NCBI RefSeq assembly: GCF_032062135.1 | Contig: NC_092858.1 | Span: forward strand, 170,710,453-170,774,452 | Direction of reading: 5' to 3' | Source of the DNA: Pyxicephalus adspersus | Lineage: Eukaryota > Chordata > Amphibia > Anura > Pyxicephalidae | DNA length: 64,000 bases | In this document: positions 2,598 through 60,898 of the stretch, one piece after another | Position numbering within the stretch: position 1 is the stretch's first letter | Layout: the number at the start of each line of letters is the position of its first letter | Notes under the pieces: generated by a model | The model's input: only the letters and a program-made list of their open reading frames with translations | What the model was told of the DNA's origin: nothing | The model's database searches: none | Program-made: the position numbers and the translations under genes

Positions 2598-2625
2598 CTA
2601 GTACGTAGTCGCTGCAGTCCAGCAT
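2598..2625 (-). CDS. POU2F1: POU2F1 (Oct-1) exon 1L, alternative first coding exon
   Basis: A nine-codon alternative first exon. The minus strand from 2625 reads M-L-D-C-S-D-Y-V-L plus one G, then a donor GTGGGTA (GT at 2597-2596). This is the N-terminus of the lymphoid-type Oct-1L isoform as I know it in mammals (MLDCSDYVL, then D-S-R-M-N-N from the common exon 2). The phase-1 junction is the same as in exon 1U at 60.8 kb, so both exons could splice to one shared exon to the left of this window. An in-frame TAG at 2688-2686 lies 60 nt upstream of the ATG, and the -3 base is A. The exon is too short to be found by an ORF search. The call rests on the exact nine-residue match, strand, order and phase together. 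Confidence 0.87.
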
Positions 2626-3290
2626 GATGATGCTACGCCGAGAGCCTTTGCTTGGATTCCTTAACAGGTGGAAAGTAGAATCTGCCTAATAATTCTTTAG
2701 GAGACGGACTAATTTACACCGGGAAAAGGGGGAGGGGGGTAAATAACGACAGATATTACACGGGGGAGACCATCACTGTGGCAAAACCGAAGACGAAAAA
2801 CTTGAAGAGTTTGCACTGCAGAGTTTTTTAGCTTCTCCTGCTAGCTCGTTCTGACATTGTCAAGGCAACTGAAGCGTGAAAAAGTTCCCCTTTTTGTAAT
2901 AAAATAGAAACAAAGATTGCAGCTGGCAGTTTCCATAATGAAGCTTAATCAGTATGCGGCTGATTAGGGCCTTATGCAAATCTTCCCTCGTTAGCGCAGC
3001 AGCCAGCACTTTGAAGTCCGTGAGCAATTCATTTGCAGAGAACACTGAAAGCGCTCCCTGCATAATTTAAATCATGGCATAAATATTTATCAGCTCATTT
3101 GCATATTAATTGGTTAGCGCAAACATTCCAAGCAGCACAGCAGCCGGGGAGGAAAAGAAAAAAAAGTGCACGAAAGGTGGGGAGGGGGGGAATTATCTGC
3201 GGAGTGCCAGCATAATAATTAACAGGAACAAAATGAAATTTCTTCCACTGGATTGGCTTTACTGACCTAAGCAGCAAGTTGTAAAGTGAT
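2626..3290 (-). promoter_or_regulatory. POU2F1: Candidate POU2F1 L promoter with two octamers
   Basis: Non-repetitive sequence directly upstream of exon 1L. It carries two perfect octamers in opposite orientations: ATGCAAAT at 2974-2981 and ATTTGCAT at 3097-3104. The second runs into ATTAAT (3105-3110), making a POU plus homeodomain composite. Several TAAT/ATTA cores and AT patches (TAAATATTTAT near 3080) lie between them. The texture, AT-rich but with many intact factor-like words and no transposon similarity, resembles conserved vertebrate promoters. The position fits a promoter for exon 1L; no TATA box or initiator is evident. Oct-1 binding to its own gene would follow from the motif but is inference. 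Confidence 0.6.
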
Positions 3291-3596
3291 AAGATGGGGG
3301 GGGGGGATGGCTAAAGGGGGGTTACTGGGAAAAAAGTTATGGATTAGAAGTAATGCTTTATATAGTTTTAAAGAAAACAGGGAACTTCCTCTCTTCTGAT
3401 CACCAATCACAGGCAAACCTACAAGACCGGTCAGATTTGATTAGTGGCAAAACTTTTTTAGACTTCACGTAGCTGACAAGCAGCACCAAACCTACAGAGG
3501 TATGTTTGAGAATTCCACTTCAACATTATAAACTGGCAAACCAAGAAGAAAAAAAAGTTTCCAAAAGATGCACAACAGTACACAGAAGACTACTAG
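3291..3596. other. Unique intron with poly-G run
   Basis: A G-run lies at about 3295-3306, followed by non-repetitive sequence with CACCAATCACAGG (CCAAT-like) near 3401. It may be part of the distal L promoter, but there is no firm support. Confidence 0.3.
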
Positions 3597-3599
3597 AGC

Positions 3600-4040
3600 T
3601 ATACCAGTGACCCGATTTCCTTTTAACGCTTCCTTTTGGATTATGTGTTTATATATATGTGTGTAAATAGTTCTTTTTATATCTTTATTTAGTTACCTAT
3701 AGCCTAACCGTCCTTAGCAATACCCCTGAAGAAGGCAGAAGGCAAAAGACGAAACGCGTCGGGCTAGGAGGGATCTAGCGTTTCTTTTTTAACGGTTATC
3801 GTTAATCATCAGCCATATGATTAGAGAATCTATGTATAGTTAATAGGTCAGGTGCATCTTGGTTTTTAATCAGGACAGGACTCAAATAACTTTTGAAAGC
3901 CATATTATGTATTGATGCATGTTCCTAAAAAGTTACATATATCAGAAACAGAATATTACAAACTTTATTGCCAAATCGAAACACCTCTACTTTTCTTTTT
4001 GTCCTTTTGGATTATGATTAACCTGTACATTTATACCAAA
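3600..4040 (+). repeat. Family I element with hammerhead-ribozyme-like motif
   Basis: Carries CTGAAGA (3726-3732), then CGAAACGCGTC (3750-3760), flanked by CCC (3723-3725) and GGG (3761-3763). These are the order and spacing of a type I hammerhead core with a minimal stem III. Stem II does not pair well, so this copy looks decayed. Such motifs are known in Penelope-like elements and related amphibian retroelements. The element limits are approximate. Confidence 0.45.
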
Positions 4041-4587
4041 AACAAAGAAGTCAGGCCAGACAATGTTGGAGATCGTTGAGACAGCAGGGGTATGCAAGGC
4101 CTCAGCAGAGACTCTTGCTTCCATACAAAGCGCAAAGATCCTTCCCTGTCACATGGGGCTGGGTTTCAACTATAACTATGGCTGCTTTGTAAGACTAACG
4201 TTTTCGTTTTGATGCCCCTGTAAGGCCATTTAACCAATATCAGCTGAGCTTTGTATGGTGTAAAGGAGATATATAGCATTAATTAGAACTTTTCTGGTTT
4301 TGGACTATTAAAAGGAAAGTTCCCAAAATCTTTTTTTCCCACAAAACATGAGATCAAATCTCCAACAGGGACAGATCTGATGCGGAGTTGTAGCATGCAC
4401 TCACTCGAAGAATAGTTTTCCTGTTGCCAGCCAGCAAAAAGTGGGAATACACTGCTATCTGGGACTGCGCTAGAGGTATTTTTACTTACTAACACTTGAA
4501 ATTTTACTATGATGATTCTTCTTACTGGAAAACTTTGGTTTACAGCTGCAAGAACTGTAAGTTTTTGCATCCTCCTTACCTCCTGCC
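4041..4587. other. Intron, no recognised feature
   Basis: Unique sequence between two repeat elements. It contains a 109-codon open frame on minus with no recognisable domain, which I do not call a gene. Confidence 0.4.
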
Positions 4588-4780
4588 TAGAGCTGGTCAA
4601 TGATATGTACAAAAATTGGACTTTTATGCAAATAATATGCTAATTACATGCAAATTGAACTGCTTTGAAACTGAGCCAATCAAACTCTATCTGAGTTTGA
4701 CTGGCTCAGTTTCAAGGCTTTGTAATTTGCATGAGATTTGAATAAAAGTTGGATTTTCTGCACCTCATTGACCAGCTCTA
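4588..4780. mobile_element. Family E octamer-bearing MITE, complete copy
   Basis: A 193-bp palindromic element bounded by TA on both sides. The termini are TAGAGCTGGTCAATGA (4588-4603) and TCATTGACCAGCTCTA (4765-4780), perfect inverted repeats. The centre is a hairpin, CTGAGCCAATCAAACTC...GAGTTTGACTGGCTCAG. TA flanks point to the Tc1/mariner superfamily (inference), and there is no coding capacity. It contains three perfect Oct-1 octamers: 4626-4633, 4648-4655 and 4725-4732. Confidence 0.8.
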
Positions 4781-5259
4781 CTCTTGCTTCGGCTTTGTCC
4801 TCTATGGGAAGATTCTTCAACTTTTCTCCGGCGTTTCTTTTTACTGCTAAATATCTTTGTGAAGAGTCAGGGTCACAGGAGTCAGGTCTCAGTAGGGGAT
4901 CAAATCCTACCCATGCCAACAAAACTAAAAAGTTTTTAGTAAAGTTGCACTATAGAAATATAACTATACATGAACTGTGCTACTCAGTCACTTCAGGAAA
5001 AATAAAAGCTTCTTGAAATGAGCCTTTGCATTCCAATCTCCGCTAATCCCTTCACAACAAGACCGTTAACAGGAGCGTTCTCTGTGCACGGTCTGTAACT
5101 GGAAAAAGGGAGAAAAGAACTTTAGAAGAAAGGTTAAAGCACTCAGCTGTAGATCTTTAGATGAAGAAGAACCAGCATGGCTTCTTGACAATGGCTTGGT
5201 TTGGAAAAAGTTTATCGTTAGGTGTGCACACCTAAACCATTTCCTTTTACATACATATA
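4781..5259. other. Intron, no recognised feature
   Basis: Unique AT-rich sequence with no repeat family or exon that I recognise. Confidence 0.4.
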
Positions 5260-5410
5260 GTGATCTCCCCGGCCTCTTTTAGCAGGGCACACGACCCGGC
5301 ACTTATCAGTAACCACCTAAAAAAGCCTGGGTGCGTCACGATATGAAGGCCACCACCCGCCTACAGATTCTTTACACCCGGCTTAAAAACAATTCTGGGT
5401 TGAACACTGG
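5260..5410 (+). repeat. Family D palindromic element
   Basis: Starts at GATCTCCCCGGCCTCTTTTAG, contains ACCCGGCACTTATCAGTAACC and the 'ccacccgcctacag' segment, and ends GTTGAACACTGG. Same family as nine other copies in the window. Confidence 0.7.
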
Positions 5411-5428
5411 CATAGATGAACCGAAGAA

Positions 5429-6215
5429 CAGGTTTAAGCAAAATATCCGAAACATTATGAAGGCTGCAATTTGTGAAAACACACAATATGTGGTGCGACA
5501 ACACTCTTCACAGTTTTGCAAACTCTCTGACATTGGGTTTGATTTAATAAAGCTCTCCAAGGCTGGTGTGGTTTTTGTATGCCAACGACGATGGAGGGTG
5601 CTGTTCCCTTATGGGTCAGCCCTGAAGTCTGGGAAGTGCTTTGGCCTTATGGTCGAGTGCTCTCCCTTACTGAGAATGTCTCTTCGGGAGAGCTCCCAAC
5701 CTAGTATCTGGTGGGTAGGTTTAGGCCAAGCCCACAAGAGAACGGGACCTATCTGATCTTGGTCAGACAGGCTAGTAGGCCCACTTGCCTTCGACTGTGT
5801 GGTCTTAGTATCCAGCCCCCATCAGGAGCATTGCGCCCTGGGGAATCTGGGTGGCCCTTCCTCTTTAGAGGAGGGAACACAAATAGCACCCCAGTACATG
5901 TTTTTTGTGGTGTGTTTTTGCAGATTCACTTTTTTCCCAGGCACCAGGGTTTTTGTGTAGAGGATCACGATTAATGAGATTTGATAAAAAAAATAAATAA
6001 AAAAAAACAGGTTAAAGCATGAAACACGAAACATAATATGAAGGCTGCGATTTGTGAAAGAATACACAATAGGAACCACAATCATGTCGTGCGACAACAC
6101 TTTTCACAGTTTTGCAAACTCTCTGACATTGGGTCTGATTTATTAAAGCTCTCCAAGGCTGGAGAGGATACACTTTCATCAGTGAAGCTAGGCGATCCAT
6201 CAAACCTGGTACAAC
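5429..6215 (+). repeat. Direct duplication flanking an unidentified 430-bp insert
   Basis: A segment of about 140 bp occurs at 5429-5570 and again at 6008-6163. Shared words include 'atgaaggctgc', 'gtgcgacaacac', 'cacagttttgcaaactctctgacattggg' and 'ttaaagctctccaaggctgg'. Its right part is family H (GATTTATTAAAGCTCTCCAAGGCTGG), extended to 6215 in the second copy. The insert 5571-6007 is unlike its surroundings: GC-richer, with the hairpin-like GGGAGAGC...GCTCTCCC, and ending in an A-rich tail (5982-6007). That would suit a retroposed sequence. I do not recognise its source. Confidence 0.55.
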
Positions 6216-6811
6216 GTTTTATTTAGTTTGGCTTGAAAAAGAGAGCTTTATTTTTAAGGTAATAATGCAGTTTAAGTGTACGTTAGGAAAATTACCTCTT
6301 ACTTGCCATTAGGCCAGAAGGGGCACAGACAAAAACACTTTAGAATGGTGCAGAATAGTTAGAACCTTTAATCATGTAATGAAGGTGTCCATAAACGATC
6401 CCCATACCCCCCTCTTAAGTGCTGCCCATGTCCGATAGTATTCTTTTAGTAATTTTTTTTTCGCTTCTAGAAACTGAACATGTGTATTGCAACCCTATTT
6501 ATTTTTATTGGTGATCTGTATTCATGGCACCCAGTGGTGGTCACTTGGAATTGAATTGGGCCACAATAAGAACTGGGCATGACTGTCATGGAGGAAAGAT
6601 CACTCGAGAAAAAAGAAAGTAAGTAAGCTAGGTAGGGTACACTCAGCATTGTCACTATAGAGGAGTAGGAGAACCACTATGCCTTATACCACAAAAGAAA
6701 ACTGTAATCTAGCCATGGGTCCAGGCTCACTATAGGACCCATCCAGCTTGCAGAATCAAAGTGCAAGCAAGCTGCAATCCTTAGATCAGTGATGGTTTAT
6801 TGCACCTTTTG
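6216..6811. other. Intron, no recognised feature
   Basis: Unique sequence. No family, RNA gene or exon recognised. Confidence 0.4.
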
Positions 6812-6995
6812 CTCACCTCTTTTAAACATGGAGGAACCCCTTGAAATAAGTTTTAGTACTTAACTACTGTAATTACAATGTCCACAGCTCTTTACATTGC
6901 TGGGCATATAGATAACCAAACAAGATTGGTGTTCACTGACCTGGAATCGCTCAAGAAACACCTAGCAACCATTGGATGAGCCCTCGGGTTCCACG
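6812..6995 (-). repeat. Family C hAT-like element, degraded
   Basis: Minus-orientation fragments: 'catggaggaaccccttgaaataa', 'taattacaatgtccacagctc', 'caagaaacacctagcaacc'. The copy is diverged. Confidence 0.45.
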
Positions 6996-7230
6996 ATTGG
7001 AAAAAACTTGTTTAATGTTTTTTCCTGAAGGATAATCCATGCCCTAGGTATGCCATCATGCACTTTGCTCCCTAGTTGGGCTTAATCATGGAGTCACTAA
7101 AGGCGAACTTGTCCTTTAAGATTTCAGGGGGTAAATGTAGATTAAGCCTACAGATTTCTTACCCTTTCTTTCCCTTCCATATAGAAAAGAATCATGCAGC
7201 AACACGCATGCAATATGGTTTCTCCTGCTG

Positions 7231-7520
7231 GTTATTATTATTATTACTACACAAAATTTATATAGCACCAACATAATATGCAGCACTGTACAAAGTCCAT
7301 AGTCATGTCACTAGCTGTCCATCAAAGAAGCTCACAATCTAATGTCCCTCCATAGTCATATGTCTTTATTACAGTCTAAGGTCAATTTTAGGGAGAAGCC
7401 AATTAACCTAACTGCATGTTTTTGGAATTTGGAGGGAAACCAGGGTACGCAGAGGAAACCCACGCATGGGGAGAACCTGCAACCCAGCACAGAGTGCTAA
7501 CCACTGAGCAACCATGCTGG
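7231..7520 (-). repeat. Family A tRNA-derived SINE, near full length
   Basis: Minus orientation. At the right end is the tRNA-like head (complement of TGGCTCAGTGGTTAGCACT, the A-box region). The body includes the complement of GGTTAATTGGCTTC...CCTTAGACTGT. At the left end is the tail 'tatatagcaccaacataatatgcagcactgtac' followed by (ATT)n. Copy A1 of the family. Confidence 0.8.
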
Positions 7521-7899
7521 ACGATAAGGTTGCCTATAGGGATATAGGGACTGGTGAATGGAACCACAACATTTAGAAGGGGATCAGATTTCTGACCTTC
7601 CTGGAAATGTTACCGAGTGCTGCCTTCTCACATTTGTACATAAAGATTTAGAAATGCATGTGTTTAAATGCAAAAAGCTGCATCTGAACTGCTTAGCCTG
7701 CAATGCATCCAAATCTCAAAAGAAGCTGCAGCATCATAAAAAAAAATAGGAATCTGATTTTAATGCAAGCTTTGCCATCTACACAACCCCTAAAAACAGG
7801 GATATTAGGCTGTAAGCTCAATATTTACTGAAAGGGCTTGAGAACACTGTCCACAATCACATATAAAAATTATCTCTCTCCAGCTATAAATGAACAAAT
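7521..7899. other. Intron, no recognised feature
   Basis: Unique sequence, nothing recognised. Confidence 0.35.
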
Positions 7900-8250
7900 T
7901 TGAGTGTGATTCACACGAGCGCCCCAAGTCTGGTGTACAGCAGCGGCAAGGTGAAAGATAAAGCTGAATTCATTTGTTAGGGGCCGTTGGTAAAGCCATT
8001 TAATCACACCCCAAGCTGCTGGGTTGGCCTCGGCCCCTGCTTTGTCTGTTTTGGAAGAGGTAAAGGTTAAGCAGATGTTCTAGACAGATGCCTGGCAATC
8101 TCCCTGCTCTGTATTCAAGCTGCTGCCAGCTCTCTGCAGGCACAAATAAATGAAATGATGGTGTGGAAGTAGCTGCCAATGCAAGGCACTCTGCAAATTG
8201 GAGTGCAAGGAGCGTGCGAAAAATCTGAGACTTCACACTGAAACTTGGGG
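7900..8250. promoter_or_regulatory. Conserved-looking intronic block
   Basis: Non-repetitive, balanced composition, with TAAT/ATTA words and CAGCTG E-box-like words. It is a candidate enhancer by texture only. A perfect octamer ATGCAAAT lies downstream at 8489-8496. Confidence 0.25.
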
Positions 8251-8747
8251 CTTCTACACACAGAGCTGCAAGAGCTCATCGGGTACAATATTTCTCAGAT
8301 ACAAAAATGACTAAACTATGAAGAGACCTGGAAACATCTGCAGAAAGAGAGAAGGTAAAACAAAAATAATTACAGTAAAAAGGTCCGGTCACTGCTTTAA
8401 CACTCCAATTATTGACCTGGAAAGAACTACCCCATTCTACATTTAATCCAAAATTTGTGTGATGGAGATGACCCCTATTTTGAAGGTAATGCAAATATAA
8501 ATGCCAATTGAATTACTTTGTATCAGAAACAATCTCCTATTTATCTCTTGTTCTCCTGTAGCCAATTTGTAGCCCCTTCGGCTCTACAGGACCCCCGCAA
8601 TGTCTTTATATTTTTTAGGGCAGGTTTCTCGTGTCCCCATAATGTGTGTTGAAAAGGCCAACTGCAGCCTCTCAGAAGCCCATGTGACAAAGCAAATGCA
8701 CAAATGGGAGATGGGGACAGAGTTCGGTCACCTTTTAACAAAGGGTG

Positions 8748-8921
8748 CAGTGTTCTCCACGGCCCCTTTTAGCTGGGCGCACCACCCAGCATTTTTCAGT
8801 AACTCCCAAGCTGTTTTTGGTTGTCTTTTGAAAAGTTGGGTCACCATACTGGAGGCTGCCACTCAACTTATAGCTTCTTCCCACCCAGATTAAAAAAAAA
8901 TTATGTGGAGAAGTGGAGAAT
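8748..8921 (+). repeat. Family D palindromic element
   Basis: Starts GTGTTCTCCACGGCCCC, contains GGGCGCACCACCCAGCA and the 'gaaaagttgggtcacc' arm. It lies directly before a family A SINE. Confidence 0.75.
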
Positions 8922-8925
8922 AAAT

Positions 8926-9246
8926 GGCAGCATGGTGGCTCAGTGGTTAACATTCTGGCCTTTGCAGCGTTAGGTCCTAGGTTCCAATCCCAGCCAGGAC
9001 ACTATCTGCATGGAGTTTACAGGTTCTCCCCGTGCGGGTTTCCTTCAAGTACTCCGGTTTCTTCCCACATCCCAAAAACACGCAACTAGGTTAATTGGTT
9101 CCCCCCCAAAATTGACCTTAGACTGTAATAATGACATATGACTATGGTAGGGACATTGTGAGCTCATTTGAGGGACAGCTAGTGACATGATTATGGACTT
9201 TGTACATCACTGCATATGTTGGTGCTATATAAATACTGTGTAATAT
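8926..9246 (+). repeat. Family A tRNA-derived SINE, full length
   Basis: The head has an A-box-like TGGCTCAGTGGT and a B-box-like GGTTCCAATCC, the internal pol III promoter of tRNA. The body has 'aggttaattggtt' and 'attgaccttagactg'. The tail is 'ttggtgctatataaatactgtg', shared with LINE family B. Copy A2. Confidence 0.85.
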
Positions 9247-9859
9247 TGGAGAGGTTGAACAAGGACCTGTAAAATAGCATTCTTGCCATGAAGTTAAACT
9301 CCAGAAAAGTGAAAAAAAACCTTGTGGTAGGGCTACTCCCACACTAAGGGTTCAATGTTCTTTTAGGACTGAGAAGCACTTTGTTTACCTTACCCGTGGC
9401 TTGCTGGTGCTTGGTGGCTGGCCAGGGCTTTTTCCATCCACTCCTGGCAATGTAGAGCACTTGGAAACTGCACTAGCTGGACTACTGGCCATTCATCTTA
9501 TACGGAGTGCAAGTACATGCAAAATGAAGCACCATTCAGTCCTGGAGTCGAGCTTGGGTGATGAGGTCTAGGGAGGGTAAGAACTATAAAGCGGCATGCG
9601 GTCCTGGACCAAGAAGCCTACAACATAAAAACTGAGGATTCACTTCAATAATTCCCAAGCCCTGCAAAGTAAAATCATCATCCAGGTGAACAGATTTATA
9701 AGTCAGAACCACAATGTGCTGCTCCAAGTCTCAGAGACCCATTGCCAGGGCAGACAATGGTTTGCAGGAGGTGTGGAAGCATTTGTGTTCTGACTTTCCA
9801 AAATTGCACATTTGCATATGAACTACTTTGCTGGAACCGGGAAGGTAACATCTTTGCTA

Positions 9860-10110
9860 ACAGGCTCTCTTTAACCAGGCATGGCCGGCCAAGTGCTCCG
9901 ACACTCGTCCAGAAATCGTATTCCTCTCTCACACCTGTTGTCTCCTTGCCTGAGGCACGGTTAGCGTGTGAGTGAGGGTCACCGCGGCTCTGATTTCCTA
10001 ATACAGACAGATAAGTCCTAGGCTCTGCCTCAGGCGGATATCAAATCCTAAAAACCAGCCTGCGGCTCTCTGGCTTTGTGAAGCGGAAGGACGCAGGGAA
10101 AAAGTGAAAG
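9860..10110. promoter_or_regulatory. Conserved-looking intronic block
   Basis: GC-balanced, CpG-containing non-repetitive sequence (GGCCGGCC, CACCGCGGC). A perfect octamer ATTTGCAT lies just before it at 9810-9817. Texture evidence only. Confidence 0.3.
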
Positions 10111-10191
10111 GATGTTACATTAAACTCCGACTTTGTTCAACTCTGAAACACTAAACGAGGACAAAAAGGTAGTCTGGCAAAGTCCATAAAC

Positions 10192-10207
10192 TTTTTTTTT
10201 TTTTTTT
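10192..10207. repeat. Poly-T run
   Basis: Sixteen T in a row; possibly the tail of a minus-strand retroposed copy, but no body is recognised. Confidence 0.7.
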
Positions 10208-10311
10208 GGACAGAGTTAGAACTGAGCACCTATCTTTATTCATAGACCAAGGATGGCCGCCATTGCTACACCAACACCCTGAATGCATTTATTAAACACA
10301 CAGTTCCTTTT

Positions 10312-10545
10312 TTATAAATCAAAGGTCATTATTGCAGAAAGGCACAGGCAATGTCCCTCCTGAAATAAATCTGTCTTACCCACCTGATTGCTAGGGGATC
10401 CTGGGGCCAATGCTGAGCTGCGCATGCAGAATGAACTCATATGCACATGCGCAGGAGTTATGTCTTCCTGGCAAAGCCAATCAAGATGCCGGAAGATCAT
10501 TCATGGGAGCAAGAAATAGTGGAATAAGGAGGGTGGCGTGGTTTT
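10312..10545 (-). repeat. Family G element
   Basis: Shares with copies at 15.3, 37.8 and 43.5 kb the segment (complement of) GATTGGCTGGGCCAGGATGATGTAACTCCTGC, plus GCATGCGCA words. The family termini are TTAAAGCGGAACTAAA and its complement. This copy lacks clear ends. Confidence 0.5.
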
Positions 10546-13133: not shown

Positions 13134-13529
13134 TAGAGATAGTCAATGAGATGCAGATAATTCGACTTTTATACAAATAACATGCAAATACCATGCAAAT
13201 TGCACTGCCTTGAAACTGTCAGAGATGGTCAATGAGATGCAGAAAAGTTTATGCAAATCACATGCAAATTGCAGATTTGAAATTGAGCCAATCAAACTCT
13301 GCAAGAATAGTTTGATTGGCTCAGTTTCAAGTTAGTATAATTTGCATGACATTTGCATGTGATTTAAATAAAAGTTGAATTTTATGCCTAACATTGACCA
13401 TCTTTTAAAAACCAAGCCAGTCAAACTCTGCAAGTAGCTGAGCTTGATTGGCCAAGTTTCAAGTCAGTGTAATTTGCATGCAATTTGAAAAAAATTTGGA
13501 TTTTATTTGCATCTCATTGACAATCCCTA
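13134..13529. mobile_element. Nested pair of family E octamer MITEs
   Basis: The outer element runs from TAGAGATAGTCAATGA (13134-13149) to TCATTGACAATCCCTA (13514-13529). It is split by a second copy inserted at about 13221-13407 (CAGAGATGGTCAATGA ... ACATTGACCATCTTTTA). After the insert, the outer body resumes with 'agccagtcaaactctgcaag'. By eye there are eight perfect octamers: 13182, 13193, 13251, 13262, 13340, 13351, 13472 and 13505 (start positions). No coding capacity. Confidence 0.8.
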
Positions 13530-14618: not shown

Positions 14619-14619
14619 C

Positions 14620-28149: not shown

Positions 28150-28880
28150 GTAAATGCTTGGAAATTATATATTTACAAGACCACCAGTGACATCACTGAG
28201 AATACACCTTATCCATTCATGAGAAAACAGTCACATTCCCGCGAATGCAGCCTATCCAATCACTGGAGACCAGTGACATCACAGAGAATGAAGCCTATCT
28301 ATTCGCTAGATACCGGTGACATCACTCTATTCGCTGGAGACCAGTGACATCACTTAGAATACAGCCTATCCATTCTTTAGAGAGCAGTGACATCACTGAC
28401 AATGCAGCCTATCCATTCTCTAGATACCTGTGACATCACAGAGAATGAAGCCTATCCATTCGCTAGATACCGGTGACATCACTCTATTCGCTGGAGACCA
28501 GTGACATCACTTAGAATGCAGCCTATACATTCACTAGAGAGCAGTGACATCACTAAGAATGCAGCCTAATTATCTTCTAGATATCGGTGACATCACTGAG
28601 AATGCAGCCTATCCATTCACTAGAGACCAGTGACATCACTGAGAATGCAGCCTATCCATTCACTAGAGACCAGTGACATCACTGAGAATGCAGCCTATCC
28701 ATTCTCTAGATACCGGTGACATCACTAAGAATGCAGCCTATCCATTCTCTAGAAATCAGAGGCATTACTGAGAATGCAGCCAATCCATATACTAGAGAAT
28801 GCTGAAATCATGGAGAATGTAAGATATCCATTCTTTAGAAACTGGTGACATCACTACAAATGCAGCCTACCTAATCATTG
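28150..28880. repeat. Minisatellite, 43-bp unit with TGACATCAC
   Basis: About 17 units of a 43-bp sequence: GACATCACTGAGAATGCAGC then CTATCCATTCACTAGAGACCAGT. A truncated unit lacking about 15 bp recurs, and a four-unit block repeats with a 157-bp period (starts 28274 and 28431). The right-hand units decay. Each unit carries TGACATCAC, a CRE/ATF-like word. Confidence 0.9.
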
Positions 28881-29399: not shown

Positions 29400-30460
29400 A
29401 AACAATGTAGGACTAGGCTCAGGGCACCCATGAAGAAGGAAGGGACACAATGCAGGACTAGGCCGGGGCACACATATAGAGAGAAGAGTCACAATACAGG
29501 ATTAAGTCAGGGTACCCACATGAAGTGAGGAGCCACAATACAGGACTAAGCCGGGGTACCCATATAGGGAGTGGAGCAATAATACAAAAGTAAGACAGGG
29601 TACCACTATAGAGAGAAGAGACACAATAAAGGACCAAGATGGGACTCCCATATAGAAAGATGAGCCACAATACATAACTAAGCCTGGGTACCACTATAGA
29701 GAGAAGAGACACAATACAGGACCAAGATGGGGCTCCCATATAGAAAGGAGAACCACAATAGATAACTAGACTGTGGTACCCCTATAGAGAGAAGAGACAA
29801 TATAGGGGTGCCCAAGCTTGGTCCTGTATTGTGGCTCTTTTCTCTCTATGGGTGCCCAAGCTTGGTCCTGTGGAGACAAGAGCCACAATACATAACTAAG
29901 CATAGGTACCCTATAGAGAAGAGACAATACAGGACCAAGTTGGGGCATCCATATAAAGAGAAGAGCCACAATATTAAACTGAGCTTGGGTACCCTATAGA
30001 GGGAAGAGATACAATACAGAACTAAGCCTGGGTACCCCTAGAGAGGGAAAAGCGGCAATAACTTACTAAAAGTCTGGGTACCCCTATAGAAAGAAATGAC
30101 ACAGTACAGAACTAACTTGGGGCACCTCTATAGAGAGAAGAGGCAAAATACAGGGCTAGGCCAGGAAACGCATAGAGAAGAGAAACAATACATAACTAAT
30201 CCAGGGTAATCCTATAAAAAGAAACACCACAATACTGAATCAAGCCAGGGCACTCATATAGAGAGAACAGCCACAAAACAGGACTGCACTAAGGCCACCA
30301 TATAGAGAAGAACAAAAATACATAGCTAAGCCAGGCTACCACCAAAGGAAAAAGAGGCATAATACAAGACTAGGCCAGGGCACACATATACAGAGAAGAA
30401 CCACATTACAGGACTAGGGTGGGTCACCCATATAAAGAGAAGAACCACAATAGTGGCCTT
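29400..30460. repeat. Minisatellite, about 45-bp unit, with internal inversion
   Basis: Degenerate tandem units around ACAATACAGGACTAAGCC then TGGGTACCCCTATAGAGAGAAGAGCC. A segment at about 29809-29873 is in the opposite orientation ('gtgcccaagcttggtcctgtattgtggctc'). The array is more than 1 kb long. Confidence 0.9.
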
Positions 30461-34989: not shown

Positions 34990-35250
34990 GCCGCTGATTC
35001 TCAACCAGGGTTCCTCCAGAGCCTGCAATGGGTTCCTTGAGCAATTTGTGCCTTTCAGGACCATTCAAATGACACCAATGATCTATTTGGCCATCTGTAA
35101 AGGTGGCTTTCTCCAATCTGGTAAGCGACGTAAGACATTCTCTCCAATGACCACCATGGTAATTTACCGGGAGCTGTGTATATAGTAATTATAGCAGGCA
35201 TTCTGTAAAGTCCTGGAAGTTATTTCAAGGGTTCCCCTACAGTAAAAAGG
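34990..35250 (+). repeat. Family C hAT-like element
   Basis: GATTCTCAACCAGGGTTCCTCC at the left, 'gacaccaatgatctatttggccatctgtaa' in the middle, 'cccctacagtaaaaaggttgata' at the right. It abuts a short tandem array. Confidence 0.75.
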
Positions 35251-35253
35251 TTG

Positions 35254-35575
35254 ATAGACCTTGATATGGTCTACTAGGTAGTTACTACGTAAAGCTTATA
35301 TGAGAGGTTCCTAGACCTTGATATGGTCTACTATGTAGTTACTACATAAAGCTTACATGAGAGGTTCCTAGACCTTGATATGGTCTACTAAGTACTCAAT
35401 ACGGAAAGCTTACATGGGAGGTTCCTAGACCTTGATATAGTCTAAGTAAGTCACAACTTAAGCTTACATGAGAGGTTCCTAGACCTTGATATGGTCTACT
35501 ATGTAGTTACTACATAAAGCTTACATCAGAGGTTCTTAGACCTTGGTATGGTCCAAGTATCCCACTACATGAACA
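35254..35575. repeat. Short minisatellite, 57-60-bp unit
   Basis: Five to six units of CCTAGACCTTGATATGGTCT then 'actatgtagttactacataaagcttacatgagaggtt'. GTAGTTACTAC is palindromic, so each unit can fold. It begins at the end of the family C copy, whose last word 'gttgatagacc' resembles the unit start. Confidence 0.9.
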
Positions 35576-45287: not shown

Positions 45288-45960
45288 NNNNNNNNNNNNN
45301 NNNNNNNNNNNNNNNNNNNNNNNNNNNNNNNNNNNNNNNNNNNNNNNNNNNNNNNNNNNNNNNNNNNNNNNNNNNNNNNNNNNNNNNNNNNNNNNNNNNN
45401 NNNNNNNNNNNNNNNNNNNNNNNNNNNNNNNNNNNNNNNNNNNNNNNNNNNNNNNNNNNNNNNNNNNNNNNNNNNNNNNNNNNNNNNNNNNNNNNNNNNN
45501 NNNNNNNNNNNNNNNNNNNNNNNNNNNNNNNNNNNNNNNNNNNNNNNNNNNNNNNNNNNNNNNNNNNNNNNNNNNNNNNNNNNNNNNNNNNNNNNNNNNN
45601 NNNNNNNNNNNNNNNNNNNNNNNNNNNNNNNNNNNNNNNNNNNNNNNNNNNNNNNNNNNNNNNNNNNNNNNNNNNNNNNNNNNNNNNNNNNNNNNNNNNN
45701 NNNNNNNNNNNNNNNNNNNNNNNNNNNNNNNNNNNNNNNNNNNNNNNNNNNNNNNNNNNNNNNNNNNNNNNNNNNNNNNNNNNNNNNNNNNNNNNNNNNN
45801 NNNNNNNNNNNNNNNNNNNNNNNNNNNNNNNNNNNNNNNNNNNNNNNNNNNNNNNNNNNNNNNNNNNNNNNNNNNNNNNNNNNNNNNNNNNNNNNNNNNN
45901 NNNNNNNNNNNNNNNNNNNNNNNNNNNNNNNNNNNNNNNNNNNNNNNNNNNNNNNNNNNN
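45288..45960. other. Assembly gap (673 N)
   Basis: A run of N. The left flank (45120-45287) is CpG-containing and non-repetitive. Frames that appear open across the gap are artefacts. Confidence 0.99.
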
Positions 45961-51236: not shown

Positions 51237-51297
51237 TTGTCTGTGCTTCTGCAGCCCACCACTGTTTCACCAACAGAATAAATTGTCCATGTTCTAC

Positions 51298-51572: not shown

Positions 51573-51627
51573 AAAAAAAAAAAAAAAAAAAAAAACCCCA
51601 CAAAAAAAAAAAAAAAAAAAAAAAAAA
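51573..51627. repeat. Interrupted poly-A tract
   Basis: Two A-runs (51573-51595 and 51602-51627) separated by CCCCAC. Slippage-prone; the long minus-strand phenylalanine runs across it are not protein. Confidence 0.95.
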
Positions 51628-51712
51628 TCACTCTCCAATGCCAAAGATCTGAAGATTTCAGGTACAGAAAACACACATCGCTGCACTCCAGATGCATCTT
51701 TCGAGAAATAAT

Positions 51713-52459: not shown

Positions 52460-52883
52460 TTGACGGGAGCCGTGCTCCTTACCTGCCTTAACATTTTTCG
52501 GGCTGACCTCCACCGGGAAAGTCTACAAATCCCAGCACTCCTAACTCAAAATATGGGATTTTGCCGAACGAGGCATCTCACTGGTCAACCCTCTCATCTA
52601 GCAAAGTGGCATCAGAACCATAATTCCTGGCAGCCAGCCGGATTCACCAGACCACAGTAAATGTCAGCCGATTTTTCTTGCTGTCTCCGTCCAGCAGATG
52701 CAATGCTTAAGACATGGCTGGACAGTATGGAGGCAGAACTGTGAAATATAAAGCACATGAAAAATCAATCTGGAGTTTTGCCTTAAATGCAAAACACTTT
52801 GCCTGCTGGATCTTCTTTTCTACAAAAGATACCGGGATCTACAACATTTGTGTACTAAACACCTTCACAGGACTCATTAACCC
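52460..52883. other. Intron, no recognised feature
   Basis: Unique sequence between a SINE and a family D copy. Confidence 0.35.
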
Positions 52884-53050
52884 CAATATTCTCCCCAGCC
52901 CCTTTTAGCTAGGCGCACCACTTGGCACTTTTCAGCCCCAAGCCCAATGTTTTTGGCTGGTTACTGATAAGTTGGGTCACAATACAGGGGCCACCACCCA
53001 CCTACAATTTCTTACCACCAGGCTAAAAAAAAAAACTGGACTGAGCACTG
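52884..53050 (+). repeat. Family D palindromic element
   Basis: Starts CAATATTCTCCCCAGCCCC, contains 'aggcgcaccacttggcacttttcag', 'ggttactgataagttgggtcac' and an A-run, and ends GAGCACTG. Confidence 0.75.
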
Positions 53051-53859
53051 AACCCCATCGGTTCTTCAGCATCCATGGATTAAAAAACTCCATGCTCGAG
53101 CCGGATTCTTTTTGCATAAAAACATCTTTTATCGACAAACCAGCTGGGGCAATCATTCATTTGCAGTTTATCTCCGAATTCCTAAATACAGGTCCAGCTT
53201 GTTGGTACAGAAATAATGGCTCCTTTAATTGTCTGCAAACCGTACTCAACTTCCAAAGAAAATTATAGTATTTTAGGTAAATACATAGGAGGGATTATAG
53301 CAGTTCACTGAACGTAGACTTCTACAATCGTCTATGCAGAGTTTTGTGAATTCTTCATCTGGTGGCTGCCTGCATAGAAGGGACGGTTTATTAGCATCGG
53401 TGCTGAATGACTGGAGCCAAAGGATCTTATTCTGACCAGACTGAACATTTGCACTTTGTAATAATGGAACACACAATATTGCAATTCAGTGTTCAATGCA
53501 TTTGGTGGCAATGGCACCTCCAACAAACTCTGCCAATGCACAACACCCATATATTAACAGGCCTATCAATCGAGTACTTTAATTTTTCGATTGAAGCGTC
53601 CTCACAGCCTTTTAAACCTTGGAACTGGTGCAATAATCCACACACCCAAGGGTGAAGGGGCCCTAAAGCTAGTTGTAAATGTGAGATGGTAGTCGGAGTA
53701 ACTTTCTATATGTACGACTGCATTAAATTGGAACTAACGTCCAACTATGAAAAATTGGCAACCAGGCTGGTGATTATGGCATAGGGGACAGGCAATGTCC
53801 CATAACCTAATAGCAGTCCAGCAGGATATGCATTAAAAAAAAAGACTAAAGATTGCTTT
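53051..53859. other. Intron, no recognised feature
   Basis: Unique sequence, nothing recognised. Confidence 0.35.
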
Positions 53860-54556
53860 TAAAGGGCACCGTGAATTAGCCTACAATAGCACAAACAGGA
53901 CGGCAAAGGCTGCCGAATGAAAAAGTGCTACAAAGTTTGAACAGCCGGGGCCGATATGCATTACCCTAAATTTGCCGCTCATATTCATCCCGCTGGTGGG
54001 CACAGCAGGGGCCCCGTTTTAATTACTGGTTGTCAGCCCGCACCAACAAAGCAAAAAGCCAACCTATTATTTTCTTAATAAAAAGCGTAAGCGGAGTTCC
54101 AAGGTCGCAGCAAATGACCAGTGTCACATCCATTGCTGTTTGAGGCAGACATACATTATTATAGGATACACACCACGGGGCAGAGTTTGTAGCCATTCAT
54201 AATGCAGGAGCAATTATCCCGAGGCCTCATCTGCTGGCCTACAGCACGTTGCCCCACCACCAATCGTTTGCTGACTCTGCGTACCTTGCAGGCCGGGCGG
54301 GCGCATTTCCTGGAAGCCCCGTAATCACCGTGTTTATGAACACAAGCAATAATTCTTTGTTCCTTCATGAAAAAAAAAAAAAAAGCACATCTGATTTTCT
54401 TAATGAATGACTTCCCGCCACAGGGACCCAATCTACGTGGATGAATCATGCTGGACTTCCAAATTACAATAAATGTAAACTTGAAGGGGATCGGACAGCA
54501 AACTTTATATTCATGCGTCATACAGCAGGCTCGCTCATCTAACATGTGGGCAATGC
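53860..54556. promoter_or_regulatory. Long conserved-looking intronic block
   Basis: About 700 bp free of the window's repeat families. It has balanced composition, retained CpGs and many homeodomain/POU-like words: GATATGCATTACC, TTTTAATTACTGG, CATTCATAATGCAGG, GAGCAATTATCCC, GGATGAATCATGC. This is the strongest enhancer-like texture in the intron. Conservation is not tested. Confidence 0.4.
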
Positions 54557-54589
54557 CAGAATATTCTAATATTGATGTATCCTGTATAA

Positions 54590-54722
54590 TTATTAAACTA
54601 TATTCCTAAATCGCCAACAAATTACGTGGCACTGTACATAGAGGTTGGTAATGACAGTCGGATACAAACAATGACACAGGAGGAGGAGAGGACCCTGCAC
54701 TGAAGAGCTTACAATCTAAAAG
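54590..54722 (-). repeat. LINE family B 3' tail
   Basis: Complement of 'ttttagattgtaagctcttcagtgcagggtcctctcctcctcctgtgtc' and 'gtacagtgccacgtaat', the 3' end of an L2-like LINE. Confidence 0.65.
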
Positions 54723-54889
54723 ACTGAATATGTAATGATTCTGGAACTTTGCAAGAATTAAAAGATTCATAAGGTCCTTTGTATAATTAAAATTTGTATT
54801 GAAATGTTTTCAATTGATTTGTAGGATGGTATAAGCTCATAGGAACCCAGAGGTAATACCCTATAGACATAGGTAAAGGTACGTGTGTA

Positions 54890-55420
54890 CATCTGTATGT
54901 TAATTCTTTTTAGGTAATTGGCTTCACCCAAATTGACCATAGACTGGATTGGTCTTCCTCGTCCTATTCGGCTTGCTCCTACTTTCTGCTCTTTTAAAAC
55001 AACACTTAAAACACAACGGTTCAACCTCACCTACCCGTCTTCTTCCGTCTCCTAAACCCTCATTGCTTCTCACCATTCCATATCCCCCTCCTATTGTGTG
55101 ATACTTCCCCCACCTCCTAGAGTGTAAGCTCTTCGGGGCAGGGTCCTCTCCTTCTCCTGTGTCACTGTCTGTATCTGTCTGTCATTTGCAACCCCTATTT
55201 AATGTACAGCTCTGTGTAATATGTTGGCGCTATATAAATCCTGTTTATTATAATTATTAATAAGTAATAATAACAATAATAATAGACTGTGCTAATGACT
55301 GTAGTATGGACAGTATATTGTGAGCCCCTTTAATGGACAGCCAGTGACAGGACTATGGACTTTGTACAGGGCTGCATAAAATGTTGGCGCTATATAAAGA
55401 CTGTATAATAGGAATAATAT
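54890..55420 (+). repeat. Family A SINE interrupted by a LINE
   Basis: Left piece about 54890-54947 ('taggtaattggcttcacccaaattgaccatagactg'). Right piece 55282-55420 ('atagactgtgctaatgactg...gttggcgctatataaagactg'). The break carries a duplicated ATAGACTG (54940-54947 and 55282-55289). Confidence 0.75.
54948..55281 (+). mobile_element. L2-like LINE, 5'-truncated, with ORF2 C-terminal tail
   Basis: Non-LTR retrotransposon 3' end. A frame at 54978-55055 ends a polypeptide with PTFCSFKTTLKT, then a serine-rich tail and TAA; this looks like the last residues of a LINE ORF2. It is followed by the 3'UTR: 'gtgtaagctcttcggggcagggtcctctcc', 'gtcatttgcaacccctatttaatgtacagc', 'tgttggcgctatataaatcctg' and an (AAT)-type tail. 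The 3'UTR resembles that of L2 elements. An 8-bp target-site duplication, ATAGACTG, flanks it. Confidence 0.75.
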
Positions 55421-55542
55421 ACATTAAAAAGATATAAATTTTTCTATGTCCTGTGGTGGACAATAGAAGCCTTCTGACCATGAAGGGGTTACCATCAACA
55501 AATAAGTCCAGACCAGAATTTAAAAACGGAGCACTGGATACT

Positions 55543-55733
55543 GTCACTGGATATTTCCCCCCTCCTATTGTGTGTTCTTTCCCCCACCTCTTAGATTGTA
55601 AGCTCTTGTGGGCAGGGTCCTCTCCTCCTCCTGTGTCACTGTCTGTGTCTGTCATTTGCAACCCCTATTTAATGTACAGCACTGCGTAATATGCTGGTGC
55701 TATATAAATCCTTAATAATAATAACTGTACTAA
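55543..55733 (+). repeat. LINE family B 3' tail
   Basis: 'cccctcctattgtgtg...ttagattgtaagctcttgtgggcagggtcctc...ctggtgctatataaatcc' with (AAT)n end; 5' truncated. Confidence 0.8.
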
Positions 55734-55902
55734 AGTTAAAAAAAAACAAAATCAATGGCTGGTTAAGAGAACCTGCCTACCAGGAATCCGTAATCAAATA
55801 TTTACCTTCACGTTAAAACTAACAGAATAACACTCAGAGAGAGAGAAAAGGGGAGCCCGACAAGACAAAAGGCTAGCACGGCCAAATCACTTAAAGAACA
55901 AA

Positions 55903-56033
55903 TTGTAAGCTCTTTGGGGCAGGATCCTCTCCTCCTCCTATGTCTGAATCTGTCTGTCATTTGCAACCCCTATTTAGAGTACAGCGCTGCGTAATATGTT
56001 GGCACTATATAAATCCTGTTAAACAATAATAAT
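55903..56033 (+). repeat. LINE family B 3' tail
   Basis: 'attgtaagctctttggggcaggatcctctcc...gtacagcgctgcgtaatatgttggcactatataaatcctg' with (AAT)n end. Confidence 0.8.
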
Positions 56034-56209
56034 AAATTGCTGGGTCATATAAAAATTTAACAAAACGTAACAAAATCAAAAGATGATTACGGCGATTACG
56101 AAGCGGAGTGGCGTGCTTTTTTTTTTTTTGCAGGATGCAAAGATAATCTAAAAAAAAAAAAAATGGTACAATTTGCCCTCTGACCCCGAGCCTTTTGCAG
56201 AAATACACT

Positions 56210-56420
56210 TCTTTGTCCCTGTGATTTCACACAACAATGAAGCACGTATTAATGACACCAGCTATTTAGGAAGGTAAGGAAAAGGGCCGGCGAGTGCACA
56301 CAGGCCCTGATATGTGATTTTTCTTTTTTCTTTTAGCTTTTGCAGGTTTGTACATGTTTTCCTTATGAATGTCATCCATGCGGTTAAGCTTTGTTGTACT
56401 CTTGCTTGCTGTAACTGGGG
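56210..56420. promoter_or_regulatory. Conserved-looking intronic block
   Basis: Non-repetitive. ATTAATGACACCAGC and CATCCATGCGGTTAAGC words and a pyrimidine tract near 56320. Texture evidence only. Confidence 0.3.
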
Positions 56421-56699
56421 AACGCCCCGAGGGGTGGAAGAGAGGGGCAGAACTGGGACACTATAGGTGATTTAAAAAAATACAAAAAAAAAAAGCAAGC
56501 AAAAGAAGCAAGGAATACATTTATCTACAACTGTTCTGAAATGCCTCAGCCGTTACAAAGTAAATCTTTTCAGGTTAGCCAAAATAAAAAGAAACAAAAA
56601 AAAATAAAGATTCAGGTCCCTTTAAAAAGTATGCTAAACCCAGAGCAAGGAAATGAATATGTAAAAGGAGAGGGGCAGGAAATCAGATCTCAAAACATG

Positions 56700-56960
56700 C
56701 GGAGGATTTAAAAAAAAAAAAGAAAACGATTTGCAACGCCAAAACGACATCAAAGGCTTCACCTTTGTATTTATTTTTGCATCATTTAGCTTTTTTGTTT
56801 ATTGAATATTCACCAAAGCCGTCCGCCTAATGCATATTAAAAAAAAACGCACACCGGTTACAAAATGACTTATCAGATATTAGCGTTGCACAGCAACCTC
56901 ATCAATCCAGCGCCAGCCCGAGCGTAACTAAACTACGGCAACACATGGCCAACCAAAATA
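56700..56960. promoter_or_regulatory. Conserved-looking intronic block with POU-like word
   Basis: Contains CCTAATGCATATTAAA (56827-56842), a dimer-like POU word, TTTTTGCATCATTTAGC, and CpG-retaining sequence CAGCGCCAGCCCGAGCG. Texture evidence only. Confidence 0.35.
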
Positions 56961-57106
56961 ATAATAAGTGAATGTGTTGAGTCTCCTTGCAAAAATATCA
57001 GACAACCTAAAAACAGGTCACGTGTAATAAAAACGAAAAAAAAAAAACAAACGGCCGCTGTGTATTTTATTAAAAAAATAAAAAACCTTCTCTCGGCAGA
57101 CTGCTA

Positions 57107-57800
57107 TTAAATTCTCTGCGTCCGCTCGCTATAGACGCGGAGCAGAGAGCAAAAGGTTAAAAATGCAGCCCCTTTGCTATCATTATTATTAATATTTGCA
57201 ACCCTTGAACTGAAGTTCACCGTCTGCATCAAAAAAAAAAAAATCGCCAACATAATAAAACACAAGCAAAATAATATAATAAAAAATAAAAAAATGACAC
57301 CCATGTACAAAAGGAGAACATTTTCGTTGGTGTTGTAGAGCCGCACCGTTCGCCGTCGGTCTGGTAAGGCTCGGAGACGGCGATAAGGCCAAGAGGTATC
57401 GCTAGTAAATAACGCAGCATAATAACAATACAAACAGGCAGCAAGGAGAAGAGAATGAGGGCTATTAATAAATAATGTCATATCAGGGGGGGCAGATGGA
57501 GGGGCACGGATCACATTAATAATAATGAGGGGCAGATAGATGATAGGAGGGTCAGTGATAATAATAATGTAGCCGGGGATTGGGAAGGGGTAATATATGA
57601 TGTAGTGAGGGGCCGCTAAACAAATATTGATGAAATAGAATAAATGGGGTGGATAAGTAGAGAAATGAGAATATAATTGAGGCGAAGTTAGAAGAGGCGA
57701 TAATAGAAGTAGCCGATTCTGACTCATAATCTAATGGCGGGGGGGCGGCCATGATAATGATGGGGGTAATAACAGAAAAAAACATAGAATAATAAGGAAG
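57107..57800. other. AT/AAT-rich intron
   Basis: A 206-codon minus frame (57107-57727) is compositionally biased (AAT and homopolymer derived) and shows no domain, so it is not called. A CpG-retaining stretch lies at 57340-57420. Confidence 0.5.
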
Positions 57801-57810
57801 ATTTAACCAT

Positions 57811-57952
57811 TCTCTTAGATTGTAAGCTCCCCTACCCCTACTGTGTCACTGTATCTGTCATTTGCAACCCCTATTTAATGTACAGCGCTACGTAATATGT
57901 TGGTGCTATATAAATGTTTATTATTATTATTAATAATAATAATAATTGTAAG
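57811..57952 (+). repeat. LINE family B 3' tail
   Basis: 'cttagattgtaagctcccctacccctactgtgtcactgtatctgtcatttgcaacccc...ttggtgctatataaatg' then (ATT)n(AAT)n. Confidence 0.8.
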
Positions 57953-58829
57953 GGAGTAAGAGGGGGCAGTTAGCTGCTCATCATACAAGGCGGGGGAACT
58001 CTTGCTGGGTGTGAGGATAAAATACGGCTGATAATAACGTGGGGTCAGAGCGGGGTAATACGGGGTCGTACGGGAACATCGCCATTTCACATTGACAACC
58101 AAACTTCCAATTGGTCAGCCGTTCCCCCCAAAGATGAATGGAATAATAATACATAAGGCGTGCAATGATATAAAATTGAGATCCCAATATGGCTAGAAAG
58201 GTTACTCCTAATAATCCCAAAATTGTAACACATGACGTCATGATAATAAATAAAAATGCACAATATATTATACATATATATATATATATATAAAAGATCC
58301 TCCATATATATAAAAGATCCGATACAACAACAGCAGGTGAGTATAATAATAACCACATTCATAATAATAAGCAGCTACACATAATACAACCAATAAGAAA
58401 TCAGCCAAAAAAGTGATAATAAAAAAGTAACAATAACAATACAAGGTCTGAGGTGTCACAACGTCTTATAAATAGGAACGTCGGGCACCGTAAAAATGAT
58501 GGATCTGGAGTTCTGAATAATTATGAGGATGAATTATAACAATGAAAATATACACTCAGTAGGGAGTAATTCCTAATGAGATTCCCTACAGGTCGTCAAT
58601 GAGCATATAAAAGGTATAATAAAGGGCCAGCAGAGATTAGTAATAGTTAGGAGGGCAATAAAGGGGATATTAATAATCAATGTGGTGCTAAATATCGGGT
58701 CGTTGGCTATGGATAATAATGGGTGAGAAGAGAAAAATAATATCCTCAGAGATGAGAAGGATACAGGGAAAACACAATAATAATGTAAAAGAAAAAAAGG
58801 TTAAAAAAAATATGGGGTCCGATGATTTT
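57953..58829. repeat. AAT/TA simple-sequence-rich intron
   Basis: Many short (AAT)n and (ATA)n runs and a (TA)n run near 58272-58292, with a duplicated 'tataaaagatcc' (58291-58302 and 58309-58320). No exon recognised. Confidence 0.6.
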
Positions 58830-58965
58830 TAGGCGAGGGGACGTCGGAGTCCGATTACCAGGCGAGGGGGGCGTCGGGGTTCGATTATCAGACGAGGGGC
58901 CCGATTATCAGACTAGGGGACGTTGGGGCCCGATTAACAGACCAGGGGACGTCGGGGTATGAATA
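58830..58965. repeat. Short minisatellite, about 30-bp GC-rich unit
   Basis: Four to five units of GGCGAGGGGACGTCGG plus 'ggtccgattatcag'. Each unit carries ACGT/GACGTC-like words. Confidence 0.85.
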
Positions 58966-59740
58966 GTAATAGATAAGCTGGGCACAGGGTGACATTATCA
59001 ATAATGAGTGAGCAGGGCACAGGATGGCATTAGTAGTAATGGGAGAGCTGGGCACAGACTGGTATGGGTAATATTCAGGGTAAACTTATTAGTAATGGGT
59101 GAACTGGGCACAGGATGGCATTAATAATATTTGTTGAACTTGACACCAAGATAAAAAAAACTTGGGTCAGCTGGGCACAGGAATACCAGGTAAGGTAAAT
59201 AGTAATAGGTGAGCTGGGCACAAGATGGCATTAATAATTGCTAAACTGGACACCATGATGAAATACTTGGCAAGCTTGGCACAGAGTTAACAGGTGGCAT
59301 TAAAAGTAATAGGGGAGCCAGGCACAGGGTGTCATGATCAATAGGTTTACCTGGCACAGGGTGACATTACAAATGATAGATGAGCCGGGCAAATTATGCC
59401 ATTAAAAGTACCAGAAGAGCTGGGCATAGACTGAGCTGGGCACAGGATGGCATGAATAGAAATTGATGAACTTAGTACCGTAATAAAATACTCTGCCAGC
59501 TGGGCACCGTGTTGACAGGTGGTGCTAATAGTAACAGGCGTCCCAGGCCATAATCAATAATGGGTGAGCCAAACACCAGGTGAAATAAATCAATTACAAG
59601 TGAGCTGGGAACAAGGTGACACCAATCAATAATGGGTGAGATGGGTACACGGGTTGGCAAACATTAATACGACATAGGTAGGTGAAGGGGGATAAAAAGT
59701 AAGAATGTGAAAATGTAATAATAATAATAATAGAAGTTAA
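58966..59740. repeat. Degenerate minisatellite, GAGCTGGGCACAG units
   Basis: Irregular units of 'gagctgggcacaggatggcattaatagtaatgggt'. It merges into the 31-bp array to the right. Confidence 0.8.
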
Positions 59741-60085
59741 GGGACAGCTGGGCAGTGAATGGTATTGATAAGTGGCAAGCTGGGCACAGACTGGCATTAA
59801 TACATAGCAAGCAGGGCACAGACTAGCATTCATTATTAGGGGCATGCCAAGCAGAGACTTGTATTAATAAGGGGCATACCAGGCACAGGGTGGCATTACG
59901 AGGGGCATACGAGGCACAGGGTGGCATTACGAGGGGCATACCAGGCACAGGGTGGCATTACAAGGGGCATACCAGGCACAGGGTGGCATTACAAGGGGCA
60001 TACCAGGCACAGGGTGGCATTACAAGGGGCATACCAGGCACAGGGTGGCATTACGTGGGGCAAACATGGCACAGACTGTCATGAT
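59741..60085. repeat. 31-bp minisatellite next to exon 1U
   Basis: The regular part (59870-60060) repeats CCAGGCACAGGGTGGCATTA plus CAAGGGGCATA with exact 31-bp spacing (for example 59941 and 59972). Because 31 is not a multiple of three, the plus strand stays open in a 93-bp cycle and gives a repetitive false peptide. Confidence 0.92.
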
Positions 60086-60544
60086 GGCAAACTAGAATAA
60101 CACAGGACTGATCCAGAAATGATACAAATAGCAATAGATCAGCACAGAATAATAATAATACCGGATATTACCCGGGGGGGGGTAATATTGGGGATATAAT
60201 GAGGGCTTTGCAGAGATTTATAATATTACAGCACGGTCACATGACATAAAATATGGCAATATAACAGGCCCCCCCCAATAATTATTACAGGGGGGGTCCT
60301 ATAATAATAATCCCAGCAATGGTCATATAACAGGTAAGGGGGCACAGGGGGTATAAATAATATTAATAATATTATTATTATACCCCATGGAGGCATATTA
60401 TTACCCCCTGTCAGGGAGGGGGGTATATACCCCAATATTATATATTAGGTGTACAGGCCAGGTAATGATGGAGGTATGGGGGGGTAATAATAATAATATG
60501 GGGGGTAATATTAGGTAAGTACAGGTCAGTCCGAATAATAATAA
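60086..60544. repeat. AAT repeats and G-runs before the CpG island
   Basis: Alternating (AAT)n and runs of 7-9 G or C (60174-60182, 60268-60276, 60292-60297, 60478-60484, 60500-60505), with an AT palindrome near 60355-60390. It is compositionally extreme and may form unusual DNA structure. Confidence 0.6.
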
Positions 60545-60834
60545 TGATGGTGGGTGGGGGTGTCCGGGCTCAGGACCCCCCTTTCCTCCTCCTCTTATTG
60601 TTCAGTCACGGATTCCGGTGAGCCCCCCCTCACGTTGGCCCCTCAGCCCCCCCTCCGGTGAGGAGAGCGGGCTCGGTTAGTGCGCGCCGCCCGCACTGAA
60701 TCCCGGTGCCTTCCCCCCTCCTTTTCTCCCGCCCGCACGGCCGCCGTCATTAGAATAATCCGGACTACTAATAAATTATGCTAAGCCGCCGGTGTGCGGA
60801 TGAATATGAATATGTAAAACGCGGTAATGATTAC
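60545..60834 (-). promoter_or_regulatory. Intron-side part of the POU2F1 CpG island
   Basis: The GC-rich block continues into the start of intron 1, with C-rich runs and many CpGs around 60600-60750. Next to the donor it changes to a POU/homeodomain-like AT stretch at 60765-60830, with TAATAAATTATGCTAAG and a doubled ATGAATATGAATATG. Promoter-proximal intronic regulation is plausible but unproven. Confidence 0.45.
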
Positions 60835-60898
60835 CTGCTGCTGCTGCCTGCGCTGCCGCTGAACTCTCATCTTGACTCGCTGCTCCTCCGTCCGCCAT
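60835..60898 (-). CDS. POU2F1: POU2F1 (Oct-1) exon 1U, coding part
   Basis: First coding exon of the ubiquitous Oct-1 isoform, a POU-homeodomain nuclear transcription factor that binds ATGCAAAT. Reading leftwards from the ATG at 60898-60896 gives MADGGAASQDESS, then A-A-A-Q and four alanines: 21 codons plus one G, followed by a GT donor (CAG|GTAATC, GT at 60834-60833). The mammalian long isoform, as I know it, starts with the same 13 residues and an alanine run, then continues D-S-R-M-N-N from the next exon; the leftover G fits that Asp codon. Start context is strong (A at -3, G at +4), and an in-frame TAG at 60964-60962 lies upstream. The exon is inside a CpG-rich block. The alanine run is encoded by a GCA/CAG-type repeat interrupted by a glutamine codon. 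The POU domains lie outside the window. The 5'UTR start is not determined. Confidence 0.88.

Follow-up and report, generated by a model that had tools for sequence, protein, structure and literature searches.

Do frogs share with mammals the two alternative starts of POU2F1, the gene for Oct-1, and has anything beyond the short coding exons themselves been kept? In mammals, promoters U and L, with their isoforms Oct-1A and Oct-1L, are established (PMC6057458; PMC8458439; PMC9090699; PMC7946658). Mammalian Oct-1L is reported mainly from B cells and brain (PMC8458439), and a figure of that paper deals, according to its legend, with the locus and its 5' end "in vertebrates"; another isoform was surveyed in 279 craniate species (PMC9090674). 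The DNA analyzed here, called the window throughout, is a stretch of 64,000 nucleotides from the frog Pyxicephalus adspersus (assembly GCF_032062135.1, contig NC_092858.1, forward-strand positions 170,710,453 to 170,774,452). We conclude, with a probability of roughly 0.93, that the window holds the 5' part of POU2F1, in which a pair of alternative first coding exons is separated by 58 kb; each likely has its own promoter, and both are expected to join in phase 1 to the same exon 2, which would lie outside the window.

An initial annotation of the letters alone had reported both peptides on the minus strand, U at 60.9 kb and L at 2.6 kb, with matching order, GT donors and phase, and this description was borne out. 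The coding part of exon U (60835-60898, minus strand, 64 nt) opens with an ATG at 60898, continues for 20 more codons (MADGGAASQDESSAAAQAAAA) and closes on a single G at 60835, where GTAATC follows. The predicted splice donor is the GT at 60833-60834 of the minus strand (GCAGCAG/GTAATC). The coding part of exon L (2598-2625, minus strand, 28 nt) begins with an ATG at 2625, adds eight more codons (MLDCSDYVL) and likewise ends in a single G, at 2598, ahead of GTGGGT; its predicted donor is the GT at 2596-2597 of the minus strand (GTACTAG/GTGGGT). Both donors were read from the sequence, and splicing at them is a prediction; both break the frame one base into a codon, i.e., in phase 1. Exon U lies upstream of exon L, and the two coding segments stand 58,209 bases apart. 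Each peptide was also sought in 20 dinucleotide-preserving shuffles, which gave at most 6/9 for L and 6/13 for U, compared with 9/9 and 13/13 in the window, and a chance origin of the two peptides is excluded.

Human and mouse POU2F1 have the same two first exons and N-termini and enter exon 2 in the same phase; the window's U peptide differs from theirs in carrying Q at position 17. Published human primers (Oct-1A and Oct-1L forward, and a reverse primer; PMC7946658) served for comparison. Read as exon 2, the reverse primer begins ACTCAAGAATG and, placed after the final G of either frog exon, continues as D-S-R-M.

A search with the window's U peptide returned 1015 proteins, and the best 120 were all of U type. 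Of the matches listed, six carry all 21 residues unchanged, and these models come from Pyxicephalus, Mantella and Gastrophryne; against ranoid-type frogs, MADGGAASQDESS matched at 13/13 positions and the peptide with its alanine-rich run at 21/21. Outside these three genera, Q at position 17 was found only in Hyperolius among the 230 models fetched, and it is absent from the models of Leptodactylus, Engystomops, Phyllobates, Hyla, Xenopus, Pelodytes, Pseudophryne, Mixophyes and Discoglossus. All four genera with Q belong to Ranoidea or Microhyloidea (NCBI taxonomy), and by its U peptide the window, too, would most likely be assigned to that group. The alanine run itself is not of constant length in frogs, ranging from AA (Discoglossus and Mixophyes) to AAAQAAAA (ranoid-type species; P0193, P0195 and P0211 versus P0121-P0129).

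The start region of exon U (60887-60906, minus strand) is identical to the human Oct-1A forward primer at 20/20 bases, and it includes AAAATGGCGG, which we take to be a YY1-type word. Similarity extends upstream of the ATG, where the ten codons at 60928-60899 read GRAILVKIFK, compared with GRPILIKIFK in a model from the lizard Rhineura (P0209); 8/10 codons are identical to the lizard models P0209 and P0228. Judged from these codons, the U leader, like the DNA above exon L described below, is conserved at the DNA level. The observed/expected ratio of CpG is 1.18-1.27 across 400 bp around the U ATG.

Exon L has equally clear relatives. A search with the L N-terminus joined to the POU2F1 body gave 315 proteins at E values up to 10, and the best 120 were scored by script for the type of start: 94 have an L-type peptide, either at the very start or preceded by an extension, 13 are of U type, 11 start at MNNPSE and 2 are other. 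The exact nonapeptide MLDCSDYVL, present in the window at 9/9 residues, occurs in 61 of the 94 L-type rows; the mouse form is MLDCSDCVL. L-type rows among the matches listed come from marsupials, placentals, birds, turtles, lizards, four frogs and one caecilian; the human L peptide itself is absent from these matches, and gibbon (P0043) and other mammals are present. The amphibian models are from Discoglossus (P0085), Ascaphus (P0087), Leptobrachium (P0090), Ranitomeya (P0117) and the caecilian Microcaecilia (P0058). Like the window they have an L-type nonapeptide, which in the models runs on into D-[SA]-R-M. They differ from it in that only P0085 and P0058 have the exact nonapeptide, the other three reading MLDCSDYIL, MLDCSDYLI and MLDCSEYAL (the Leptobrachium peptide matches the window at 7/9 residues), and in that P0090 carries an N-terminal extension. 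Discoglossus pictus alone among the matches listed has both kinds, an L model (P0085) and two U models (P0193, P0195), whose contigs have the same listed length. Pfam found Pou, Homeodomain and POU2F1_C domains in all three models scanned (P0122, P0085 and P0090).

These alignments to amphibian and mammalian models, with the human U primer site, uphold the view that the two peptides are the alternative POU2F1 N-termini in their mammalian form and that the pair is common to frogs and mammals. The expectation that the 28-nt exon was likely to be overlooked by automated annotation did not hold as a general rule: NCBI models include it in Discoglossus, Ascaphus, Ranitomeya and Microcaecilia, as does a UniRef model in Leptobrachium. 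Taken alone, the exon pair is orthology of the expected kind; its parts can be found in public annotation, the short exon in that of other amphibians.

Several other models extend the L frame upstream with differing in-frame leaders (e.g., MFSQSSSVDLIEIAILPFLGLSEPVEDTTA), among them those of songbirds (P0014, P0030, P0037, P0038, P0040-P0042 and P0048) and gibbon (P0043). Conservation of such a leader was considered with gibbon P0043 and songbird P0048 and rejected; at the L locus the match to the window is confined to the nine L codons.

What is new here, as far as comparison with one distant frog can tell, is a near-unchanged block of DNA just above exon L. The Leptobrachium leishanense model P0090 begins 145 residues before the L ATG, and its extension covers a block at 2850-3063 of the window (minus strand; 225-438 bp upstream of the L ATG; tblastn E value 8e-33). 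Its first 58 residues are identical to the window codons at 3063-2890 in 54 cases. The next 14 residues match at 14/14 positions, in a frame moved by 2 nt (2891-2850), and further on the match drops to background. Because the match persists across the frame change, the constraint is best read as acting on DNA and not on protein, and the block at 3063-2850 is likely to be conserved promoter or leader DNA. An open frame of 67 codons and a stop (MQGALSV..., 2860-3063, minus strand) overlies the block; with a transcript start above 3063 it would be an upstream open reading frame, and otherwise not. NCBI taxonomy places Leptobrachium in Pelobatoidea, outside Neobatrachia. Models that start at the L ATG cannot display the block, so the depth of its conservation is read from two frogs only. 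In the open-licence literature, judged by titles and the beginnings of abstracts, we found no report of an amphibian L exon or of a conserved L promoter.

Conservation of this block at the DNA level is also what would be seen if exon L were a silent relic, nine codons persisting beside a conserved enhancer in a lineage that makes no L mRNA. Among the matches listed (best 120 of 315 with the L query; best 120 of 1015 with the U query), Ranoidea and Microhyloidea are represented by U models only, with no L model from either group, as such a relic would predict. We nevertheless consider this explanation improbable, a slim chance at best: the window keeps the nonapeptide in full, a clean ATG, and both donor and phase, and the exon is annotated in four other frogs and in a caecilian.

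Still less credible is the proposal that the frog L transcript encodes a longer N-terminus, running from MQGALSV through the block into MLDCSDYVL. P0090 is annotated in this way, and the 54/58 agreement of its first codons with the window is in its favor. However, the window has in-frame stops at 2862, 2775 and 2688 between the frame of the block and the L ATG, as well as the 2-nt frame change inside the block across which conservation continues, and the long form was rejected for the window. Moreover, the four other amphibian models begin at the L ATG, an MQGALSV-type start was seen only in P0090 among the 230 models fetched, and a search with the P0090 extension returned P0090 alone of 398 candidates. 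A duplication or displacement, by which both segments would form a stray fragment in place of a working POU2F1 locus, would fit the absence of exon 2 from the window, with no link to the rest of the gene in view, but is hardly tenable given the shared strand, the intact donors, the conserved DNA above both exons and the fact that, unlike in a processed copy, exon 2 is fused to neither segment.

A working POU2F1 locus with two first exons is the best explanation. The DNA above exon L holds several candidate promoter words. Two perfect octamers lie on the minus strand upstream of the L ATG. The first, ATTTGCAT (2974-2981), is 349 bp above the ATG and within the conserved block, where the Leptobrachium residues are H-L-H-K; these could encode the same bases but do not prove it. 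The second, ATGCAAAT (3097-3104), is 472 bp above the ATG, near a CCAAT word (3113-3109) and above the start of P0090. Oct-1 reportedly regulates its own gene by way of two octa-sites of the alternative promoter (Pankratova, 2006); the two octamers above exon L are candidates for such sites. At least two octamers within 520 bp would be expected by chance in about 1% of cases, and in more if octamers cluster (a hand Poisson estimate at the density of the window). TCF/LEF-like words occur at 3015 and 2915 and FOX-like words at 3125, 3090, 3085 and 2745, although, as consensus words, these are weak evidence. Potential TCF and FOXO sites are reported for the human L promoter (PMC7946658). The octamer pair would fit an autoregulated L promoter but does not prove one.

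Several observations weigh against this interpretation of the locus and its promoters. The start of exon 2, sought as DSRMN, SRMNN and MNNPSE, is in none of the six frames of the window (0/6); a single chance DSRM at 648 continues as EMCTV and a stop. The human L forward primer, which sits in the L leader, found its best match in the window at 15/21 bases and in unrelated places. Perfect octamers number 20 in the window, compared with 3.5 expected from base composition, and the pair above exon L may therefore be due to chance. No TATAWA word is present in the 700 bp above exon L. Above the L ATG, the CpG observed/expected ratio reaches 0.80 over the first 200 bp and 0.63 over the second, which makes the contrast with exon U one of degree; the human L promoter is reported to have no CpG islands (PMC9090699).

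Octamers are unevenly spread in the window: 8 of the 20 fall between 13182 and 13512 and 3 in 4626-4732. A short repeat family with inverted copies contains many perfect octamers (4612-4686, 13309-13383 and 13182-13512) and may have supplied scattered Oct sites.

The following scheme for the frog, including how the exons are spliced, how active the promoters are and in which tissues they are used, is inferred. U would be the broadly active general promoter, and the exact conservation around its ATG probably reflects a YY1-type site as well as coding. L would be a regulated promoter at which Oct proteins likely bind the two octamers 472 and 349 bp above the ATG, and the gene would thereby control its short-headed isoform through feedback. 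Splicing would join the phase-1 donor of either transcript to the same exon 2, such that the choice of promoter would swap 21 N-terminal residues for nine before an otherwise shared protein. We tentatively suggest, at somewhat less than even odds, that since the common ancestor of frogs and mammals it is chiefly the L promoter, and less so the nine codons, that has been kept: a switch of paired octamers, lying within a block of >200 bp that is near-unchanged between two distant frog lineages, may let Oct-1 (or Oct-2) control short-headed Oct-1 across tetrapods.

The U and L starts of Oct-1, which have been studied in human and mouse blood cells, are therefore present in frogs and likely date back to the common ancestor of tetrapods. 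Exact coordinates are now available for both frog exons, and the DNA above exon L, with its octamers and its conservation between two frog lineages, makes Oct-1 autoregulation testable in a laboratory frog.

Other first exons may exist. A Tasmanian devil POU2F1 model (P0089) starts with METFVYLSSKPHV ahead of DSRMNN, which is neither U nor L and is perhaps another first exon. The exon of the mammalian third promoter (Oct-1X) was not found in the window, which was given no proper test for it; the N-termini METFVYLSSKPHV (P0089) and MN (P0102) are not tied to Oct-1X, and the window was not searched for them. No Rfam family was found in the window at gathering thresholds. Runs of N at 45288-45960 and 63441-63448 are either gaps in the assembly or masked sequence. 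Tandem arrays, whose units measure about 30 to 157 bp, are abundant in the first intron and in the flank upstream, at 28183-28869, 29402-30452, 35248-35559, 58831-60074 and 63139-63776.

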